Of a DNA stretch of 44,564 nt, positions 1-9,703 are shown piece after piece (positions within the stretch are counted from its first letter, which is position 1; each line of letters starts with the position of its first letter). Source of the DNA: Flavobacteriaceae bacterium. GTDB lineage: Bacteria; Bacteroidota; Bacteroidia; Flavobacteriales; Flavobacteriaceae. The DNA lies in assembly GCA_029942185.1 (NCBI GenBank), contig JAOZTK010000003.1:1-44564 (forward strand). The letters run 5' to 3'. Under the pieces are notes generated by a model. That model was not told where the DNA came from and searched no databases. It saw only the letters and a program-made list of their open reading frames with translations. The position numbers and the translations under genes were made by a program.

Positions 1-4
1 AAAT

Positions 5-55
5 GACCTAAAGTGTCATTTTTTTACTGTTTTGTGTCGCTTGTGCAACGATTAC
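5..55. repeat. 51-bp direct repeat, copy 1 (cassette-end-like)
   Basis: Positions 5-55 are identical, base for base, to 967-1017 (constant offset 962). On the minus strand, the coding strand of the neighbouring genes, each copy lies just downstream of a gene: this one after the RDD gene, the other after the HEAT-like gene. It contains a GTTGCACAAGCGAC-type motif. The match stops at position 4, so the window edge does not truncate it. The copies are too precise to be chance; the function is inferred, not known. Confidence 0.9.
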
Positions 56-73
56 AGTTGTTGGCAACTGTAA
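52..73. repeat. Perfect 9-bp-arm hairpin after the RDD gene
   Basis: TTACAGTTG and CAACTGTAA flank a four-base loop (TTGG). It lies about 20 bp past the RDD stop codon and overlaps the GTTGGCAACT arm at 60-69. That arm is the exact reverse complement of AGTTGCCAAC at 686-695, just upstream of the same gene. There is no U-run next to it in the minus direction, so it is not a standard terminator. Confidence 0.75.
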
Positions 74-93
74 CTTTTCAGAGTTATAGTCTG

Positions 94-672
94 TTATTTT
101 TCCTTTTTAGTTTTAATTACATATGTTTTTCCTATTCTGTCATGTAATGCTCTTTCCGTTTTTGTTTTGTCTGTCAGCAAAAAGATTATTTCAACGACAA
201 GAATTAACTGCATTAGGTTTGTGATATAATTTTGCATTGGATAATTGAGGGCTATTGCTTGACCATATTCAACAAATGAATTTATTTTTAAAATTTCTGG
301 ATTATTAAAAGCTAAATAAGATATTGGAATAAAGAATAAAGTAGGTAAAATTAATATTGAACTTCTTAGAAATGATTGTTGTAAAGTCAATTTATTAAAG
401 TCCGTATCAGTTACTTTTAAGTCTAATGCATATTTTCCAATTGTTGCTCCAAAATAATATTCCATCAGAGGCTTATAGAAAAACCCTATTAATGCCAATA
501 TCAAATACAGGCTAAAACTTTTATATTCAGTAATATTGAGATAAGTAACGGGTAAAACTATGAGCATTAATATAATTGCATCAGTCAAATAAGCTCCTGT
601 TCTTATCCAAAATTTTCCGTATTCAATATTTTCCTTATCAATATTATTTTCACTTAGTTCTTCTTTTTTCAT
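94..672 (-). CDS. RDD family integral membrane protein
   Basis: A 192-residue hydrophobic protein. Near the N-terminus it has RTGAYLTDAIILML, which fits the RDD signature in which an Arg and two Asp sit around the first membrane helix. The following hydrophobic stretches are at about residues 30-45, 53-70, 105-125 and 150-167, and the tail is Lys-rich. The segment GATIGKYALDLKV matches the usual RDD-domain centre. The family sits in the inner membrane; its role is mostly unknown, with some members implicated in ion or solute exchange. The start is a clear ATG with no in-frame alternative. The gene stands alone, bracketed by complementary 10-bp arms (60-69 and 686-695) and followed by the 51-bp repeat, which suggests accessory, possibly transferred DNA. 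Family call fairly sure; function unknown. Confidence 0.75.
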   Translation of the reverse strand: MKKEELSENNIDKENIEYGKFWIRTGAYLTDAIILMLIVLPVTYLNITEYKSFSLYLILALIGFFYKPLMEYYFGATIGKYALDLKVTDTDFNKLTLQQSFLRSSILILPTLFFIPISYLAFNNPEILKINSFVEYGQAIALNYPMQNYITNLMQLILVVEIIFLLTDKTKTERALHDRIGKTYVIKTKKEK

Positions 673-966
673 AGTATTTTTTTATAGTTGCCAACGGGAG
701 TCTGCGCACAAACTCACATTTCAATAGCCAAAGTTAACATATTACGTCAATAAGTAACTTATACCGTACTTAGTTTTGTTAATTTCCCTAAAAGTAAAAA
801 TTATTTTGATGCTTGTAGAGTTTTAAAAACACTAAGGCTACAAGCAAAGACTTGCTTTTTGTTTAAAACAAATAAAAGAGGCTGTAGTCGTCCAAATAAG
901 CCTTTTTAAGCCTTTCAAAAAATTACAAATATTTTATACAGAAAAAAGTGAAGTTTGCTTAAAAAC
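673..966. other. Gene-free spacer between two cassette-like units
   Basis: No convincing gene is present. Contents: AGTTGCCAAC at 686-695, pairing with the far side of the RDD gene; GCGCACAAAC at 704-713, partly complementary to the GTTGCACAAGC motif in the 51-bp repeat; and a perfect 9-bp inverted repeat TGCTTGTAG/CTACAAGCA at 810-818 and 838-846. Near 920-950 is an AT-rich stretch with two copies of AAGCCTTT. The layout resembles a long recombination-site spacer, but no integrase gene is in view. Confidence 0.5.
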
Positions 967-1017
967 GACCTAAAGTGTCATTTTTTTACTGTTTTGTGTC
1001 GCTTGTGCAACGATTAC
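967..1017. repeat. 51-bp direct repeat, copy 2 (cassette-end-like)
   Basis: Exact copy of 5-55. On the minus strand it starts 13 bp beyond the TTGTTGCCACC arm (1020-1030) that follows the HEAT-like gene. The two genes upstream of the copies are unrelated, so the repeat is tied to the gene end and not to a duplicated gene. This is the arrangement expected of cassette boundary sites. Confidence 0.9.
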
Positions 1018-1035
1018 CTTTGTTGCCACCAGTTT

Positions 1036-1983
1036 TTATTTCAGTTTTTCAATTGCTCCTTTCGGACTTGGAAAATGTGTTCCAACTCTTGGGTCCATTA
1101 TATTTCCACCAAATCCTGTTTCTTCGTCCGATTGATTTTCCACAATTCCCAATAGTTTTTCTTTGTATTTCTTTCCGCCAATTTTACTTAAAGACCAAAT
1201 TGCAATTACTTTTTCAAAGTTTTCATTCTGTTCATTATTCACAAAATCGAATAAATAGTCTTTAGTTTCTTCGTTATTTAAATTCGATAACAGTTGTAAT
1301 GCAGAAACTCTTGAATGAAAATTATCAGATTCCACAAACTTTTTAAGTCTTTCAAGCCCAATTGATATATCTAAAAGATAAGCTGTTTCTAATGTTGCGT
1401 GTTGAAGAAAGAAAGTTGAGATTTCATTTTCATCAAAACCTGCTGGGTCTTTGTCTATATTTTCATTTATAAGTTGAAGTACGTTTTCTCTATTGAATTC
1501 AGATGTCTTGTAGTAATTCCAAATTTCGGTATATGTTTTTTCATAAATAACTTGCGGAACTAACGCTTGGTGATAACTGTGTCTATAAGTTGCGTAAACA
1601 TTTTTATCTTCATCTAAAACTGCAAATCCAGAAGTTGGTGTAGGAATTGCATAATTTCCATCTTTCCTTTTTGTCAATAGAAAGTAGATAATTTGGTCTT
1701 TTTCAAAATCCAAATGAGTTCCGTGACCTGAAGAGCTTGTCATATTTAAAAGAGAAAATCCATTTATTAAAATTTTCCCTTCCAGTTTTTGATTTCCAAA
1801 ATATTTTAAGATTTCAATTTCAGTTCCAATACTATCAATATTACTTAAGACTTTTGCTAAAACAAAATAGTCGGCACTTTTTATTATTTCCTTTTGCCAA
1901 GGTTCGTCCCAAGTTTCCGCTGAAACTTTTGTTTGGATTGTCAATGTTAAAATAAGGAATAGAGCAATTTTTATTAATCTCAT
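1036..1983 (-). CDS. Secreted HEAT-repeat-like hypothetical protein
   Basis: A 315-residue protein with a Sec signal peptide (MRLIKIALFLILTL... cleaved near VSA-ET, residue 22). The first half (about 23-150) is beta-rich with no motif I recognise. The C-terminal part (about 185-290) has helical pairs such as RVSALQLLSNLNNEE and VIAIWSLSKIGG, which read like degenerate HEAT/armadillo repeats, often used for protein contacts. Periplasmic or surface location is likely. The gene is bracketed by its own complementary arms, 1020-1030 and 2000-2010, matching at 10 of 11 bases, and followed by the 51-bp repeat. No operon partner is evident. HEAT assignment is moderate; no function can be given. Confidence 0.6.
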   Translation of the reverse strand: MRLIKIALFLILTLTIQTKVSAETWDEPWQKEIIKSADYFVLAKVLSNIDSIGTEIEILKYFGNQKLEGKILINGFSLLNMTSSSGHGTHLDFEKDQIIYFLLTKRKDGNYAIPTPTSGFAVLDEDKNVYATYRHSYHQALVPQVIYEKTYTEIWNYYKTSEFNRENVLQLINENIDKDPAGFDENEISTFFLQHATLETAYLLDISIGLERLKKFVESDNFHSRVSALQLLSNLNNEETKDYLFDFVNNEQNENFEKVIAIWSLSKIGGKKYKEKLLGIVENQSDEETGFGGNIMDPRVGTHFPSPKGAIEKLK

Positions 1984-1999
1984 ATGTTTTTTTCAAATT

Positions 2000-2010
2000 G
2001 GTAGCAACAA
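2000..2010. repeat. Upstream arm of the HEAT-like gene unit
   Basis: GGTAGCAACAA on the plus strand is the reverse complement of TTGTTGCCACC (1020-1030) except for one base. It lies 17 bp before the ATG of the minus-strand gene. The corresponding arms of the RDD unit differ in sequence, so complementarity is private to each unit. Confidence 0.6.
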
Positions 2011-2180: not shown

Positions 2181-3689
2181 ATGGAACGAAAAGAAGAATT
2201 TTTCAATTATATTACAGAAGGCTATAAAACAAAAGGAGATTTTATCATTTTAGGATCGGCCATGTTAGATGGTGAAACTCTAAAAGATGCTTATGTAAAA
2301 GTGCCTTTACGTACACTAAACAGACACGGATTGATAGCCGGTGCTACAGGTACCGGAAAAACAAAAAGTTTACAAGTATTAGCTGAAAACCTTTCTGAAA
2401 AAGGAATTCCTGTATTGTTGATGGATGTAAAAGGTGATTTAAGTGGTTTGGCGAAACCAAGTCCCGGTCATCCAAAAATTGATGAAAGACAAGCTGCTAT
2501 AGGATTGCCCTTTAAAGGAAAAGCCTTCCCTGTTGAAATATTGACTATTTCCGTACAAGATGGTGTTCGAATGCGAGCGACAGTTTCTGAATTTGGTCCG
2601 GTGCTCTTGTCTAGAATATTGAATCTTACAGATACCCAATCCGGTATCGTTTCTATATTATTTAAGTATTGTGACGATAATAAACTTCCTCTGTTAGACC
2701 TAAAAGATTTTAGAAAAATATTACAATACTCCACTAATGAAGGTAGAGAAGAAATACAATCTGAATATGGTCGTATTTCAACTGCGAGTACAGGTAGTAT
2801 TTTACGAAAAGTAGTTGAATTGGAACAACAAGGCGGGGATTTGTTTTTTGGAGAAAAATCATTTGATGTAGCTGATTTGACACGAATTGACGAAAACGGT
2901 CGTGGTGTTATTTCGGTATTACGACTTACGGATATTCAAGATAAACCAAAACTATTCTCAACCTTTATGCTGCAACTTCTCGCGGAGGTCTATACGACTT
3001 TTCCGGAACAAGGAGACAGTGATCAACCCGAATTGGTCATCTTTATAGATGAAGCACATTTGGTGTTTAAAGAAGCATCGAAAACTCTGCTGTCTCAAAT
3101 AGAAAGTGTGGTTAAATTAATTCGTTCCAAAGGTGTGGGAATCTACTTTGTAACACAAAATCCAAAAGATGTTCCTCAAGATGTTCTTGCACAACTGGGA
3201 ATGAAAATACAACACGCTTTACGCGCATTTACTGCAAAAGACAGAAAAGCCATTAAATTAGCTTCAGAAAACTACCCGGATTCTGACTATTACGATACAG
3301 ATAAAGCTCTTACAGAATTAGGTATAGGAGAAGCTTTTGTATCTGTTTTAGACAGAAAAGGTCGTCCGACTCCACTAGCAGCAACGATGATGCGCGCTCC
3401 TATGAGTAGAATGGATATTTTGGATAAAAATGAACTAAAAGAATTAATAAATAATTCTCAAATAGCAAGTAGATATAACGAAGAAATTGATAGAGAAAGT
3501 GCCTATGAAATATTAAATAAAAAAATTGATACGGTTCATAAAGAACACAAAGAAGAAGAGAAGGAAAAAAAGAAAAAAACAAGTAGTAGTTCACGAAAAA
3601 GCACACGTATGAATCCTGTTGTAAAAGTACTAACCAGTGCTACTTTTATCAGAGGTGCCTTAGGAATATTAAAAAAATTAATGCGGTAA
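2181..3689 (+). CDS. HerA-like ATPase, DUF853 family
   Basis: A 502-residue FtsK/HerA-type ATPase of the DUF853 group. The Walker A motif GATGTGKT is at residues 54-61, followed by VLLMDVKGDLSGLA. Walker B is IFIDEAHL with D290-E291, and a sensor-like IYFVTQNPKDVP follows. The tail is Lys- and Ser-rich (about 455-480). Length is normal for the family. HerA proteins are hexameric DNA translocases; archaeal HerA works with the nuclease NurA, but no nuclease gene is adjacent here and the bacterial DUF853 role is unclear. A TATCTTTA element at 2154-2161 may be its -7 box. It appears monocistronic and is the first core-type gene after the accessory zone. Family call sure; substrate unknown. Confidence 0.88.
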   Translation: MERKEEFFNYITEGYKTKGDFIILGSAMLDGETLKDAYVKVPLRTLNRHGLIAGATGTGKTKSLQVLAENLSEKGIPVLLMDVKGDLSGLAKPSPGHPKIDERQAAIGLPFKGKAFPVEILTISVQDGVRMRATVSEFGPVLLSRILNLTDTQSGIVSILFKYCDDNKLPLLDLKDFRKILQYSTNEGREEIQSEYGRISTASTGSILRKVVELEQQGGDLFFGEKSFDVADLTRIDENGRGVISVLRLTDIQDKPKLFSTFMLQLLAEVYTTFPEQGDSDQPELVIFIDEAHLVFKEASKTLLSQIESVVKLIRSKGVGIYFVTQNPKDVPQDVLAQLGMKIQHALRAFTAKDRKAIKLASENYPDSDYYDTDKALTELGIGEAFVSVLDRKGRPTPLAATMMRAPMSRMDILDKNELKELINNSQIASRYNEEIDRESAYEILNKKIDTVHKEHKEEEKEKKKKTSSSSRKSTRMNPVVKVLTSATFIRGALGILKKLMR

Positions 3690-3834
3690 ATAGCACTTTT
3701 TTTTTTTTTGGTTGTTTTGTCATTTTTTATCATTTTCGTTTGACAGAATTTAAAAAAAAAACAGGATGTTATGAGTTTTTCAAACTAAACTACCAATATT
3801 ATTAAGTTGTCATGTTAATTAAATTACACAAATA

Positions 3835-4407
3835 ATGAAAATTTATAAAGCGATTTTTGTACTAGTTGTCACTTTTTTAATTGGTATCAGTTGTAGTAAA
3901 AATTCAAATTTTCTAATTGAGAAGAACAGAGTTGGAAAGCTTAATAAAACCACTAAAGTATTTGAACTCTCAAATATTTTTGCAAAGGATTCTATAGTAG
4001 AAAAACTGAGTAAAAACAAGGCAAACCAGGGTACAAAAAGCAAGTATTTTAGAGAGGATGACCAATATTTGATTTATGATAAAAAAGGAAAACATCTGTT
4101 GACCATTATTCCAATTCAACAACATGACTCACTCTCAAAGCTAAAAAGTGTTGAAATATTCAGCAACAGATTTAAAACAAAGAAAGGGGTTTCCTTGTAT
4201 TCACCTTTTAAAGATATAATAGCTTCCTACCCAATAAGTATAACCAATACTTTAACATCTGCACATATTGATATTGATGACCTCAACGCTACAATGGCAA
4301 TTGATAAAAAGGAAATAGGTATCAATGAGTTTAATCGTGAAAAGATTAATATAAATCAAATTCCAAGTCTGGCAAAAATCAAACATTTTACTGTTTGGTT
4401 TAACTAG
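3835..4407 (+). CDS. Putative lipoprotein, unknown function
   Basis: A 190-residue protein with a lipoprotein signal, MKIYKAIFVLVVTFLIGISC, and the lipobox Cys at residue 20. The rest is polar and alternates short beta-like segments; I recognise no domain or catalytic motif. It follows the HerA-like gene after 145 bp of AT-rich DNA with a long T-run (about 3700-3712), so it is probably a separate unit. It converges on folD with 64 bp between. Envelope location is well supported; function cannot be stated. Confidence 0.65.
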   Translation: MKIYKAIFVLVVTFLIGISCSKNSNFLIEKNRVGKLNKTTKVFELSNIFAKDSIVEKLSKNKANQGTKSKYFREDDQYLIYDKKGKHLLTIIPIQQHDSLSKLKSVEIFSNRFKTKKGVSLYSPFKDIIASYPISITNTLTSAHIDIDDLNATMAIDKKEIGINEFNREKININQIPSLAKIKHFTVWFN

Positions 4408-4471
4408 CGTTTTGTTTTTAAGAACCCAAAACCTAGAACCCTACTAACATCTATCCCATCAGTGTCGATTA

Positions 4472-5350
4472 TTAAGAATTTAACTTTTTATTTGCCGAAA
4501 GCGTATTCTTTAACAACATCGCAATAGTCATGGGTCCTACGCCTCCCGGAACCGGGGTTATATAGGCGGCTTTTTTGCTGACACTTTCAAAATGCACATC
4601 CCCGGCTAAACGATATCCTCGTTTGCGTGTGGCGTCTTTAAGTCTTGTAATTCCAACATCGATAATCGTTACTCCTTCACGAACCATATCACCGGTAAGA
4701 AATTCTGCAACACCCAATGCTACCACGATAATATCCGCTTTTTGTGTAATTTCTTTTATGTTTTTCGTACGACTGTGAACCAAAGTAACGGTGGCATTAC
4801 CAAAGTCTCTTTTTTGACTTAATAAGATGCTTATAGGGCGTCCCACAATATGACTTCTACCGATTACCACTACATTTTTACCGGAAGTTTCAATCTTATA
4901 ACGTTTTAATAATTCCATAATTCCATAAGGCGTTGCAGAAAGAAAGCTCGGGAGATCCAAGGTCATCTTACCAACATTGGTTGGGTGGAATCCATCTACA
5001 TCTTTATCGGGATCAACTGCCATTAGAACCTTTTGTTCATCGATATGTTCTGGTAGCGGTAATTGAACAATATAACCATCTATTTCAGCATCTTTATTTA
5101 ACAATGCCAATTCGTGTAATAATTGTTCTTCGGTTATGTCTTCGGGCAAATCAATTAAGGTAGAATTAAACCCCACGCGTTCACAAGCTTTGACTTTACT
5201 GTTAACATAGGTTAAACTGGGTCCGAAATTTCCTACGATTACCGCGGCAAGATGTGGTATTTTACCTTTGTTTTTCTTTATTTTTTCTACTTCTAATGCA
5301 AGTTCATCTTTTATTTCAGCAGCTGTTTGTTTACCGTCTAATAGTATCAT
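4472..5350 (-). CDS. folD: Bifunctional methylenetetrahydrofolate dehydrogenase/cyclohydrolase
   Basis: FolD interconverts 5,10-methylene-THF and 10-formyl-THF in the cytosol, supplying one-carbon units for purines and formyl-Met. The 292 residues match the family. The YVNSK motif (Y48, K52) carries the catalytic lysine. [14 protein letters not shown] and the C-terminal [15 protein letters not shown] are signature segments, and [13 protein letters not shown] marks the NADP-binding fold. Its ATG lies inside the end of the upstream glycosyltransferase gene (20-bp overlap), which suggests translational coupling, although the two proteins share no pathway. Identification is firm. Confidence 0.97.
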
Positions 5351-6776
5351 TTTTTTTTAATTTATAGATGTATATATGTATTCTGAATTTTTTAAACTCC
5401 TTTATAATCACGTAATTATTATCTAAATTTGAATATTCATCATCTTTAAGGTTAAAAATATTTGAATAAAAAAGATAATTATTTTTCCCGTTATATCTTT
5501 GAAAAGCACGCGAATCCCCAGTAAAATCAATAGCATCCATAGGAAAAGTATTTATTGAAAACGAACCGGTTTCCGCTATTTCTATATTGTTTTTATCCAT
5601 ATAATTTATCGCTTTTAATCGTAGGCTATGATAGGGGATATGTGCGAGTGAAGCGTCCCAACCTTGGGCGATATTTCTTGGATAAATCCACAAATTGCCC
5701 GTTAATAAAGCTATAAACAAAAAGCTGTAAATAATTCTTCTTTTTTTATAAAACCGTATCAAAATGATATAAGACAAAAATACAATTACAATATTTGCAC
5801 TGATAAAATAACGGTGTCCCATGGTATTTGTCGAGAGTAAATTAGTAACAGAAACCACAATTATCGAACTGATTGCAAGTAATAGCAATTGTTTGACCTC
5901 TTTTGTAAACAACTTTTTTTTGAATCGAATAAAGCTAAAAATCAGAAAAATAAAAATAAAGACTCTTCCGAAGTCTAAAAATCTATGTCCGAATATCACA
6001 AAGTTTTTTAGAAATATTTCAGGAGAGGCGAAGTGCCAAAATCCCGACCAGGGTGATTCCGGATGGGTTTGTATGTAACCTTTTGTAAAAAGTCTCCATA
6101 AGATATAGATTACTCCGGGTAAACTACCCAACAAATAACTCAGAAAAAATTTGGGTTTTAGCAATGCTTTTAAACCTTTTTTTTCAATTGTTAAAATAGA
6201 AATCGATTCAAAAATAAAAATACCGGCAGCGAGCATCATGCTTCTTAAACTGATAATACTAAGAAAGGCCAAAGCGAGTATTTTCAGATAATACTTATCG
6301 TATAAAATTGCATTTACCGCTAATAGAAAAAAGAAAAGGAAAATAATTTCAGGATTTACAACAAAAAACTGTACGCTTAAAGTGGGATCTACAACAACGA
6401 GTAAGAAAGCAAAAAAAGCTAGGAAATTATTTTTTAAATAATAGTTGACAAATAGATGAAGCTGGTAAAAAAAACCTATGATAAAGGGCAAGATCACAAG
6501 ATGACTAACCCATAGTTTGTGTCCCAAAACCTTCCATGCGCTTGCCAGTAAAAAAGCTAAAAATGGCGGATGTCCAGTATCGATTGCAATCGGAAAATTC
6601 CAATTGAAAATACCGTGGTAATACAAGTGATTCCCCATAATGGAGCTAAACAAGATATTATCCCAAAACATTCCATTGTTGCGCGCAAAAGCAAAAATCA
6701 CTAGTCCTAAGCCTGTATAAAAGGCAATTCTATTCTGTTTCTTTAAAAAAAAACGGTCTATAAAATTGAGAGTCAT
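5331..6776 (-). CDS. GT39-like polytopic membrane glycosyltransferase (copy 1)
   Basis: A 481-residue protein with about ten hydrophobic helices and a short soluble C-terminus (about 400-481). The first periplasmic loop holds [10 protein letters not shown]; an acidic residue followed by HPP is characteristic of GT39/ArnT-like transferases that use polyprenyl-phosphate sugars. These enzymes add sugars to lipids or proteins on the outer face of the inner membrane; donor and acceptor are unknown here. It is clearly paralogous to the gene at 6866-8293 (for example [11 protein letters not shown] and RSMMLAAG are shared), so this is a tandem duplication. Its 3' end overlaps folD. Fold call is good, substrate unknown. 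Confidence 0.78.
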
Positions 6777-6865
6777 AATAATACTTGCTTATGGATGGAG
6801 AATAGATAGTTCGTCTACAAAACTATAAAAAATAAACGTATCCAACGTGTCATTCTCAGCGACAT

Positions 6866-8293
6866 TTAGTCCTTTAATTTATATATAAACAAATGGATTC
6901 CCCTTTTTCGAAATTCCCGTATAATTGTATAGTTCGTGTCCAGGTTTTTGTATTGCTCATCGGTTAAATTGAAAACATCGGCGTAAAAAATATAAGCATT
7001 TTTAGACGTATATGTTTCAAAGTGTCGCATATCACCACTTAAATCTACGTTATCAATACGAGTAGCATTTGGGAAGAATGTAGCAGTTTCCTCTATTTTT
7101 ATATTGTTTTTATCCATGTATTTAATAGCGTCTTGACGCAATTGAAAATAAGGAACATGTGCTAAAGAAGCATCCCAACCTTGTGCAATATCTCTTGGAT
7201 AAATCCATAGATTTCCGGTAATTAAACCTATAAATAGCAGTGAATAAATAATTTTTTTGTTTTTATAGAATTGACTCATTATCAGGAAACCTATAAGAGC
7301 AATAGCAATAAATGAAGTGATAAAATACCTGTGTCCCATTGTGTTTGTAGCAATTAAACTTGTAATTGTTACTACAAAAACAGATGTGATAGCGAGTAAT
7401 AAAAGTTGTTTGATTTCCTTTGTGAAAAGTAGTTTTTTAAAACGAAATACACTATAAATAATAAATAATAAAATAAATACTCTACCGAAATCAGCATACC
7501 GATGTCCTAAAACAAGGATGTTTCTTAAAAATATTTGAGGGGAAGCTACTTGCCACAATTCAGCCCATGGGGAATCCGGGTGTGATTGCAACCATCCTTT
7601 AGTCATTAATCTCCAGATAACAAACAAAACGCCCGGAATACTTCCAAGTACATAACTCAAAATAAACTTTGTATTCAAAATGGACTTAATTTTTTGTTTA
7701 TTTATAAATGCATAATTTAAAAACTCAAAAAGAAAAACACCTGCAGCCAACATCATACTCCTATAACTGACGATACTCAAGAAAAATAATGCAACAATTT
7801 TTAAATAATACTTGTCGTACAATATGGCGTTAATCGCTAAAAAGAAAAAGAACAATGAAATTATTTCTGGATTGACCAACACAAATTGTGCGGATAGGGT
7901 AGGGTCGACAGCGATAAATATAAATGCGAAGAATGCCAGTGTAGTATTCTTTACATAATAACTGACAAACAAGTGCAACTGATACAGCAGACCTATTGAA
8001 AATGGCAATATAAGCAGATGACTTACCCATAAATTATGTCCAAATAATTTCCATACAATAGCGAGTAAAAATCCTAAGAAAGGCGGGTGACCCGGATCAA
8101 AACTGTCGGGGATGTACCAATTAAAAACACTGTTTTCATAGAGTTGATTCCCCAACCTTGACGCAAACAATACATTGTCCCAAAACATCCCATTATTACG
8201 GGATAAAAAAAAGATTAATATCCCTATTAGACTAAAAAAAAGTGTCTTGTAAAGTTTGTTGTTAAAAATGACATCTATAAACTTTAATTTCAT
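6866..8293 (-). CDS. GT39-like polytopic membrane glycosyltransferase (copy 2)
   Basis: A 475-residue paralogue of the next gene downstream, colinear over the whole length. It shares RNNGMFWDN near the N-terminus, the acidic DPGHPPFLGF loop, [20 protein letters not shown] and [11 protein letters not shown]. Membrane helices alternate as in copy 1. The C-terminal soluble part (about 400-475) diverges more than the core, which suggests a different acceptor or partner. Spacing to copy 1 is 89 bp without an evident terminator, so the order copy 2, copy 1, folD is probably one transcript. It probably glycosylates an envelope molecule; the reaction cannot be specified from sequence. Confidence 0.78.
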   Translation of the reverse strand: MKLKFIDVIFNNKLYKTLFFSLIGILIFFLSRNNGMFWDNVLFASRLGNQLYENSVFNWYIPDSFDPGHPPFLGFLLAIVWKLFGHNLWVSHLLILPFSIGLLYQLHLFVSYYVKNTTLAFFAFIFIAVDPTLSAQFVLVNPEIISLFFFFLAINAILYDKYYLKIVALFFLSIVSYRSMMLAAGVFLFEFLNYAFINKQKIKSILNTKFILSYVLGSIPGVLFVIWRLMTKGWLQSHPDSPWAELWQVASPQIFLRNILVLGHRYADFGRVFILLFIIYSVFRFKKLLFTKEIKQLLLLAITSVFVVTITSLIATNTMGHRYFITSFIAIALIGFLIMSQFYKNKKIIYSLLFIGLITGNLWIYPRDIAQGWDASLAHVPYFQLRQDAIKYMDKNNIKIEETATFFPNATRIDNVDLSGDMRHFETYTSKNAYIFYADVFNLTDEQYKNLDTNYTIIREFRKRGIHLFIYKLKD

Positions 8294-8371
8294 GTGACTG
8301 GGGTTTATGGAGTGTGCTGTTTTAACAAATTAGTAATGAGAGTTCTACTTTTACGTTTTAGGCTCTTTAAC

Positions 8372-9703
8372 TTATTTCATTCCTCCCAACATATTCATCA
8401 TACGGCTTTTACCACCGGGACCTTGCATCATCTTCATCATTTTACTCATCTGTGTAAACTGTTTCATCAATTGATTTACGTCTTGGATACTAGAGCCGGA
8501 ACCCTTAGCAATACGTTTTTTTCTACTTGCAGTGATACTCTTTGGCTCACTTCTTTCGCTAGGTGTCATGGAATAAATAATTGCCTCAATTCCTTTAAAA
8601 GCATCGTCATCCATATCGACATCTTTCATCAATTTTCCGGCGCCGGGTAGCATTCCCACTAAATCTTTCATGCTTCCCATTTTTTTAATTTGCTTAATTT
8701 GCTTTAAAAAATCATCAAATCCAAATTTGTTTTTGGCAATTTTTTTCGAAATCTTTCTTGCTTCTTCTTCGTCGTATTGTTCTTGCGCGCGTTCTACAAG
8801 AGATACTACATCACCCATTCCTAAAATACGATCAGCCATACGATCCGGATAGAAAACATCAATTGCCTCCATCTTTTCTCCTGTTCCGATAAACTTGATG
8901 GGTTTATTGACGACGGATTTAATAGATAATGCGGCACCACCACGTGTGTCACCATCTAATTTTGTCAAAACAACTCCTTCAAAGTTTAATATATCATTAA
9001 AGGATTTTGCTGTATTCACCGCATCTTGTCCCGTCATTGAATCAACGACAAATAAGGTTTCTTGCGGTTGAACTGCTTTGTGAATATTCGAAATTTCAGT
9101 CATCATTTCTTCATCGATAGCTAAACGCCCTGCAGTATCTATAATGACTGTATTTTTTCCATTTTCCTTTGCGTATTTAATCGCATTTTTTGCTATTGCA
9201 ACCGGATTTTTATTTTCAGGTTCGCTGTATACTTCAACGCCAATTTGTTCACCCACAACTTGTAATTGTGTAATCGCAGCAGGTCGGTATACATCACAAG
9301 CAACTAAGAGTGGTTTTTTATTTTTTTTGTTCTTAAGAAAATTTGCTAGTTTTCCGGCAAATGTCGTTTTACCGGAACCTTGTAAACCTGACATTAATAT
9401 GATTGTAGGTAATCCTGATAAGTCAACACCTACTGTTTCACCTCCCATTAACTCAGTGAGTTCGTCTTTTACTATTTTAACAAGTAACTGACTGGGATTT
9501 AAAGTAGTCAATACATTTGCACCAATGGCTTTCTCCTTGATTCTTTTGGTGAAATCCCTAGCGATTTTAAAATTGACATCGGCATCTAAAAGTGCCCTAC
9601 GCACTTCTTTAAGAGTTTCTGCTACATTTACTTCTGTGATCTTCCCATGACCTTTAAGAACATGAAAAGCTTTATCTAATTTGTCGCTTAAATTATTAAA
9701 CAT
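8372..9703 (-). CDS. ffh: Signal recognition particle protein Ffh
   Basis: Ffh binds signal peptides on nascent chains and, with SRP RNA and FtsY, delivers ribosomes to the inner membrane. The N domain starts MFNNLSDKLDKAF. The G domain has GLQGSGKTT, DTAGRL and TKLDGDTRGGA. The Met-rich M domain forms the C-terminus (MKMMQGPGG...). I start it at the ATG at 9703 (443 residues). The longer frame would need a TTG at 9715 and would add four residues not typical of the family. It lies downstream of tRNA-Leu on the same strand. Identification is firm. Confidence 0.97.
   Translation of the reverse strand: MFNNLSDKLDKAFHVLKGHGKITEVNVAETLKEVRRALLDADVNFKIARDFTKRIKEKAIGANVLTTLNPSQLLVKIVKDELTELMGGETVGVDLSGLPTIILMSGLQGSGKTTFAGKLANFLKNKKNKKPLLVACDVYRPAAITQLQVVGEQIGVEVYSEPENKNPVAIAKNAIKYAKENGKNTVIIDTAGRLAIDEEMMTEISNIHKAVQPQETLFVVDSMTGQDAVNTAKSFNDILNFEGVVLTKLDGDTRGGAALSIKSVVNKPIKFIGTGEKMEAIDVFYPDRMADRILGMGDVVSLVERAQEQYDEEEARKISKKIAKNKFGFDDFLKQIKQIKKMGSMKDLVGMLPGAGKLMKDVDMDDDAFKGIEAIIYSMTPSERSEPKSITASRKKRIAKGSGSSIQDVNQLMKQFTQMSKMMKMMQGPGGKSRMMNMLGGMK

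Follow-up and report, generated by a model that had tools for sequence, protein, structure and literature searches.

The window (the whole stretch of 44,564 nt analysed here) is contig C3 of a Flavobacteriaceae genome (G000), taken from base 1, in a 2.2-Mb assembly of 204 contigs that is 96.7% complete. Near its left end lie two minus-strand genes, each followed by a copy of a 51-bp repeat, and the features around them, named in the terms of the reading argued for below, are as follows.

1 to 69, minus strand: left half of the attC-like site belonging to the RDD cassette, the remainder being off the contig
Reaching base 1, minus strand: weak hairpin AAATGACACTTTAGGTCATTT of the RDD-cassette attC-like site
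5 to 55, minus strand: first copy of the 51-bp repeat, made up of an L'' arm and the beginning of a terminator-like hairpin
39 to 55, minus strand: L'' (GTAATCGTTGCACAAGC) of the RDD cassette, within the site at 1 to 69
60 to 69, minus strand: R'' (AGTTGCCAAC) of the RDD cassette, within the site at 1 to 69
94 to 672, minus strand: RDD-family gene (PF06271, E 1e-21), the putative payload of cassette 2
686 to 695, minus strand: GTTGGCAACT, the inverted repeat on the 5' side of the RDD cassette, which complements that cassette's own 3' end at 10/10 positions
695 to 1030, minus strand: complete attC-like site (R''-L''-loop-L'-R') between the HEAT and RDD genes, unusually long, recognised by arm pairing
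695 to 2007, minus strand: putative entire HEAT cassette, from TT at 2007 to G at 695
696 to 713, minus strand: L' arm (GTTTGTGCGCAGACTCCC), which pairs with L'' at 1001-1017 and contains the motif at 704-713
967 to 1017, minus strand: second copy of the 51-bp repeat, with its L'' core at 1001-1017
1022 to 1030, minus strand: R'' of the HEAT cassette (GGTGGCAAC)
1036 to 1983, minus strand: HEAT-repeat-like gene, the putative payload of cassette 1 (HEAT_2 match weak, below cut-off)
1999 to 2008, minus strand: GTTGCTACCA, the inverted repeat on the 5' side of the HEAT cassette, which complements that cassette's own 3' end at 9/10 positions
2015 to 2036, no strand: perfect 22-bp palindrome, an orphan attI-like dyad, its centre 18 nt ahead of the cassette start
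2181 to 3689, plus strand: HerA-like ATPase gene (PF05872), a chromosomal neighbour outside the array

Direct comparison bears out the preliminary description in that the 51 nt of 5-55 recur unchanged at 967-1017 and that the copies stand behind two unrelated genes, of the RDD family (94-672) and HEAT-like (1036-1983), both on the minus strand. Under relaxed matching the pair widens to 1-71 and 963-1033 at 92% identity, and the contig end, where the window begins, truncates the left copy. Between the two genes the repeat unit measures about 340 nt, more than had been noted, with the 51 nt as its most conserved portion. The motif GCGCACAAAC at 704-713, which had been picked out as partly complementary to the repeat, is indeed complementary to the repeat core, and belongs to the other arm of the attC-like site.

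Two identical copies 962 nt apart might simply reflect a local 51-bp duplication within the window, which is what the preliminary description would have concluded had there been only these two copies and no conservation in relatives. A genome-wide count, which it had proposed, instead gives 18 matches to the repeat in this genome (the best ten at E 1.6e-35 to 0.04), well beyond chance, and eight exact copies of the 17-nt core GTAATCGTTGCACAAGC (on contigs C3, C14, C36, C69, C70 and C105), as against one two-mismatch match for the backward control of that core. Together with the recurrence of the core across many Flavobacteriaceae genera, this leaves a plain local duplication with practically no likelihood. 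Within the GTDB collection the 18-mer GGTAATCGTTGCACAAGC occurs in 45 stretches; Flavobacteriaceae or Flavobacteriales account for 42, nearly all of equal layout, while the remaining three (Proteobacteria, Saprospiraceae and Bacteroidales) resemble chance matches; the 17-mer is present within one mismatch in 15 of 100 family genomes (backward control, one match overall), and the genus mate G001 has the same core with one mismatch. No copy of the core was found in viral contigs, and no Rfam family matches the repeat.

Many of the copies in the own genome lie at contig ends, the usual place for repeats, where C8 and C46 carry partial copies; such cut copies probably mark further arrays. The genes beside them, with the copies just 3', encode ParD/ParE, a HigB-like toxin with its antitoxin, an HTH-ImmA protein and unknown small proteins, and the opposite arm GTTTGTGCGCAGACTCCCG/TT stands at the start of the next gene's unit (the stroke marks the presumed crossover). 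As an aside, the HTH-ImmA cassette protein (L012, 9324-10418) matches PADLOC PD-Lambda-2_B at E 3.7e-47, making it a candidate phage-defence gene within a cassette.

The earlier view that the repeat has been copied and conserved thus holds, but it does not appear to be an independent intergenic element. We read it, with a probability of roughly 0.87, as one conserved half (L'') of the attC-like sites that belong to an integron-like gene-cassette system in Flavobacteriaceae; integrons are best known as platforms that collect antibiotic-resistance genes in other bacteria. A cassette would span G/TT to the next G/TT. It would open with a short inverted repeat of its own (GTT...), carry a single gene or two paired genes, and close with the complementary R'' (...YAAC) and the attC core, in which the conserved L'' GGTAATCGTTGCACAAGC is followed in many cases by a transcription terminator, then by a middle that varies and by the L' arm. 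A tyrosine recombinase of about 380 aa, related to XerC/D and IntI and encoded in genus mates, would recognise the folded attC, use one folded strand, and insert cassettes at one of two places, an attI with dyad symmetry or the TT of an attC that comes before. On its sequence the mobile unit would be a gene plus its bracketing inverted repeat, with the 51-bp repeat as the L'' half of the attC-like site, and the crossover of the RDD cassette would fall between G (695) and TT (694).

Evidence for the cassette boundaries comes mainly from an inverted-repeat test, in which the 10 nt up to and including AAC (with AAC fixed at -6) were compared, attC by attC, with upstream GTT-starts. Of 36 attC from other genomes, 23 had an own start and end agreeing at 9/10 or more, as against 7.5% of swapped pairs, and none of 20,000 permutations reached 23; a looser AAC rule gave 16 of 37, likewise beyond every permutation. 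For about a third of attC no clear cassette start was found within 2.3 kb. For eight cassettes of the own genome the own-pair mean was 9.25 of 10, compared with 5.5 (2 of 40,320 permutations), four of these starts having been located by the L' motif alone and the rest partly by the inverted repeat itself. The HigBA cassettes of the own contig C69 and of G273, which belongs to another genus, are closely alike only from CGTTAGGCAACAT to CGTTGCNTAAC, and these limits therefore fix the unit as GTT...AAC; in G273 the cassette adjoins a recombinase and its attC differs from that in C69. Because attC varies between genomes while the HigBA cassette keeps its own inverted repeat, the system, if rightly read, would offer a natural test of host-specific attC acquisition by cassettes. 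A look for an empty site at the HerA gene in genus mates found neighbours that were not syntenic.

These boundaries bear directly on whether the repeat could be a dispersed intergenic element, of the REP or MITE kind or else a mobile terminator, whose copying beside genes did not depend on them. Such an element would account for the many copies, the AT-richness, the hairpin and the invariable position 3' of genes, but not for genes bracketed by matching cassette-specific ends, for homologous genes of two genera sharing that exact interval, or for recombinase genes at array heads; we consider it improbable.

The arms of the window attC, GGTGGCAACAAAGGTAATCGTTGCACAAGC and GTTTGTGCGCAGACTCCCGTTGGCA, pair to give two helices, R''/R' on the outside and L''/L' on the inside, with a bulge and a spacer between them, at -12.0 kcal/mol (p 0.04 against shuffles), with p 0.08 for the site on C14 and 0.17 for that on C69, so that at single sites the pairing is only weakly better than in shuffles. 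A hairpin with a T-run lies 15-29 nt past L'' in 25 of 41 sites, compared with 1.9% in controls, and the stem sequences vary; scans of the window for sigma-70 promoters and terminators gave no excess over shuffles, the window hairpin being too AT-rich for the scan. The attC-like sites are 206-387 nt long, which is longer than usual for attC. Immediately ahead of the L' arm (at 720-780 in the window, and in other L' halves) there is a conserved TAACTTTG, which we take to resemble the Bacteroidota -7 promoter box and which as such may drive the next cassette. A contig of Zobellia (G007:C13, 42001-140000; L175-L178) carries about a dozen attC, all on one strand, over about 95 kb, with a recombinase-like gene on the opposite strand.

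At the other end of the array, the palindrome at 2015-2036 has 11/11 arm matches, a figure reached in none of 20,000 shuffles, and its centre lies 18 nt ahead of the start of the HEAT cassette, in a gap between divergent genes in which a terminator would not be expected. No recombinase adjoins it. Among 21 recombinase-adjacent sites in relatives, 12 have a dyad of at least 8/11 centred 17-20 nt ahead of the cut, and nine have no clear dyad at the spacing tested. On this geometry the window holds two putative cassettes, HEAT-like and RDD, behind an orphan attI-like site (2008-2036).

In the relatives, a TT cassette start lies behind tyrosine recombinases some 380 aa long, in most cases no more than about 100 nt away. 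At L046 the recombinase is directly followed by an attI-like dyad and TT start, with GTTCTACGCA-gene-TGCGTAGAAC and then an attC of the window type; at L064 a recombinase, attI-like dyad, TT start and window-core cassette lie behind a remnant. Five of six genus mates (G001, G002, G004, G005 and G006) have one full-length recombinase gene each, and the enzymes of G001 and G002 group with that of L046 at 100/100 in the tree. The alignment (A1) retains the conserved R, K, H-x-x-R, H and Y positions. In the tree the recombinases join rAID, tet(X) TnpF and Chryseobacterium plasmid enzymes (89/89), less two flavobacterial enzymes; IntI1 lies nearby on a long branch, which leaves its exact place unsure. 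Sequence evidence establishes the cassette boundaries, the attC arms, the attI geometry and, in relatives, the linkage of recombinase to attC.

No tyrosine recombinase, XerC and XerD included, was found in the own assembly, and nor was hpf, which adjoins xerC in relatives, although genus mates carry these genes; because this region is missing too, the absence may represent an assembly gap. It may alternatively be that the cassettes are real, but have been spread and homogenised by homologous recombination between long repeats, with no site-specific recombination in this organism today, which is a version of the integron-like explanation rather than exclusive of it. The missing recombinase would fit such a fossil array, as would the likeness of attC within the genome and the terminal attC of C69, which has no L' half; the full-length genes in genus mates and the absence of the XerC/hpf region from the same assembly speak against it, and we regard it as a possible but rather unlikely state of affairs.

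The integron-like reading invites comparison with several known systems. Features shared with integrons are a tyrosine recombinase adjoining an attI-like site (in relatives), co-oriented small genes, cassette-specific R'/R'' complementarity, the G/TT start, and toxin-antitoxin cargo as in chromosomal integrons. The differences are that the flavobacterial cassettes lie 3' of the recombinase and co-directional with it, that attC is 206-387 nt long, has an L'' that hardly varies and in many cases includes a terminator, and that the recombinase has no IntI-specific insertion: 56-57 residues separate KGxKDR from HxLRH, as against 98 in IntI1, and TIGR02249 scores of 188-219 bits fall below the cut-off of 265. 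Judged strictly, the arrays have attC with R''/L''-L'/R' and cassette-specific complementarity (in overlong sites) and, by sequence geometry, a putative attI at the array head, while the relatives' recombinases lack the additional domain around patch III that defines IntI (PMC9668308); for this last reason the system is called integron-like, and not a strict integron. In IntegronFinder 2.0 the integrons of Bacteroidetes comprise only In0 and Salinibacter ruber (PMC9024848).

Another comparison is with the rAID arrays (recombinase-associated acquired interbacterial defence) of Bacteroidales, whose recombinase falls in the same clade (99/92 with Flavobacteriaceae enzymes) and which share co-oriented short genes, intergenic motifs and, as read by eye in L153, like inverted repeats; they differ in having immunity genes as cargo, short intergenic sites and an A/TT start. 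The same-clade recombinase heads arrays of SMI1/KNR4, Imm26 and T6SS immunity genes in L153 (a Bacteroides ovatus plasmid, 3785-8849) and L156, with gene-specific inverted repeats and an A/TT start in the former. The own array is not itself a rAID, having no T6SS immunity cargo but cassettes for RDD, HEAT-like, ParDE, HigBA and HTH-ImmA proteins. The original rAID paper may have remarked on a likeness to integrons, and parts of the present system may already have been described. In one account rAID is presented with its tyrosine recombinase and intergenic motifs, the words integron and attC being absent (PMC12247911).

The XerD/TnpF-tet(X) module likewise has a recombinase of this clade (55% identity to L095), with a dyad and TT start directly ahead of tet(X3) and a partly matching end (7/10 by eye), but is plasmid-borne, with a truncated recombinase and only one gene. 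In L150 (3600-3850 and 4960-5117) and L151, tet(X3) lies behind the truncated same-clade recombinase like a first cassette. XerD beside tet(X) has been noted in the literature, with its role unknown (PMC7473080). XerC and XerD themselves share superfamily and catalytic residues with the array recombinases, but form a separate branch, and the latter have some 80-90 additional N-terminal residues and an IntI-like SPLD/NPLD tail; chromosomal dimer resolution by Xer/dif was rejected as an explanation, as the recombinases do not group with XerC/XerD in the tree.

On balance we lean, if only slightly, towards the view that Bacteroidota have an integron lineage of their own, set apart by its recombinase and its type of attC. 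The rAID immunity arrays and the tet(X)-XerD module would be branches of this lineage, and the window an orphan attI array. If this is true, a widespread marine and environmental family has an integron-like gene-capture system that IntI-based searches would overlook; three things reported separately, namely flavobacterial cassettes, gut rAID arrays and XerD beside tet(X), would be linked; and the way in which tet(X) may have been mobilised would become open to testing.
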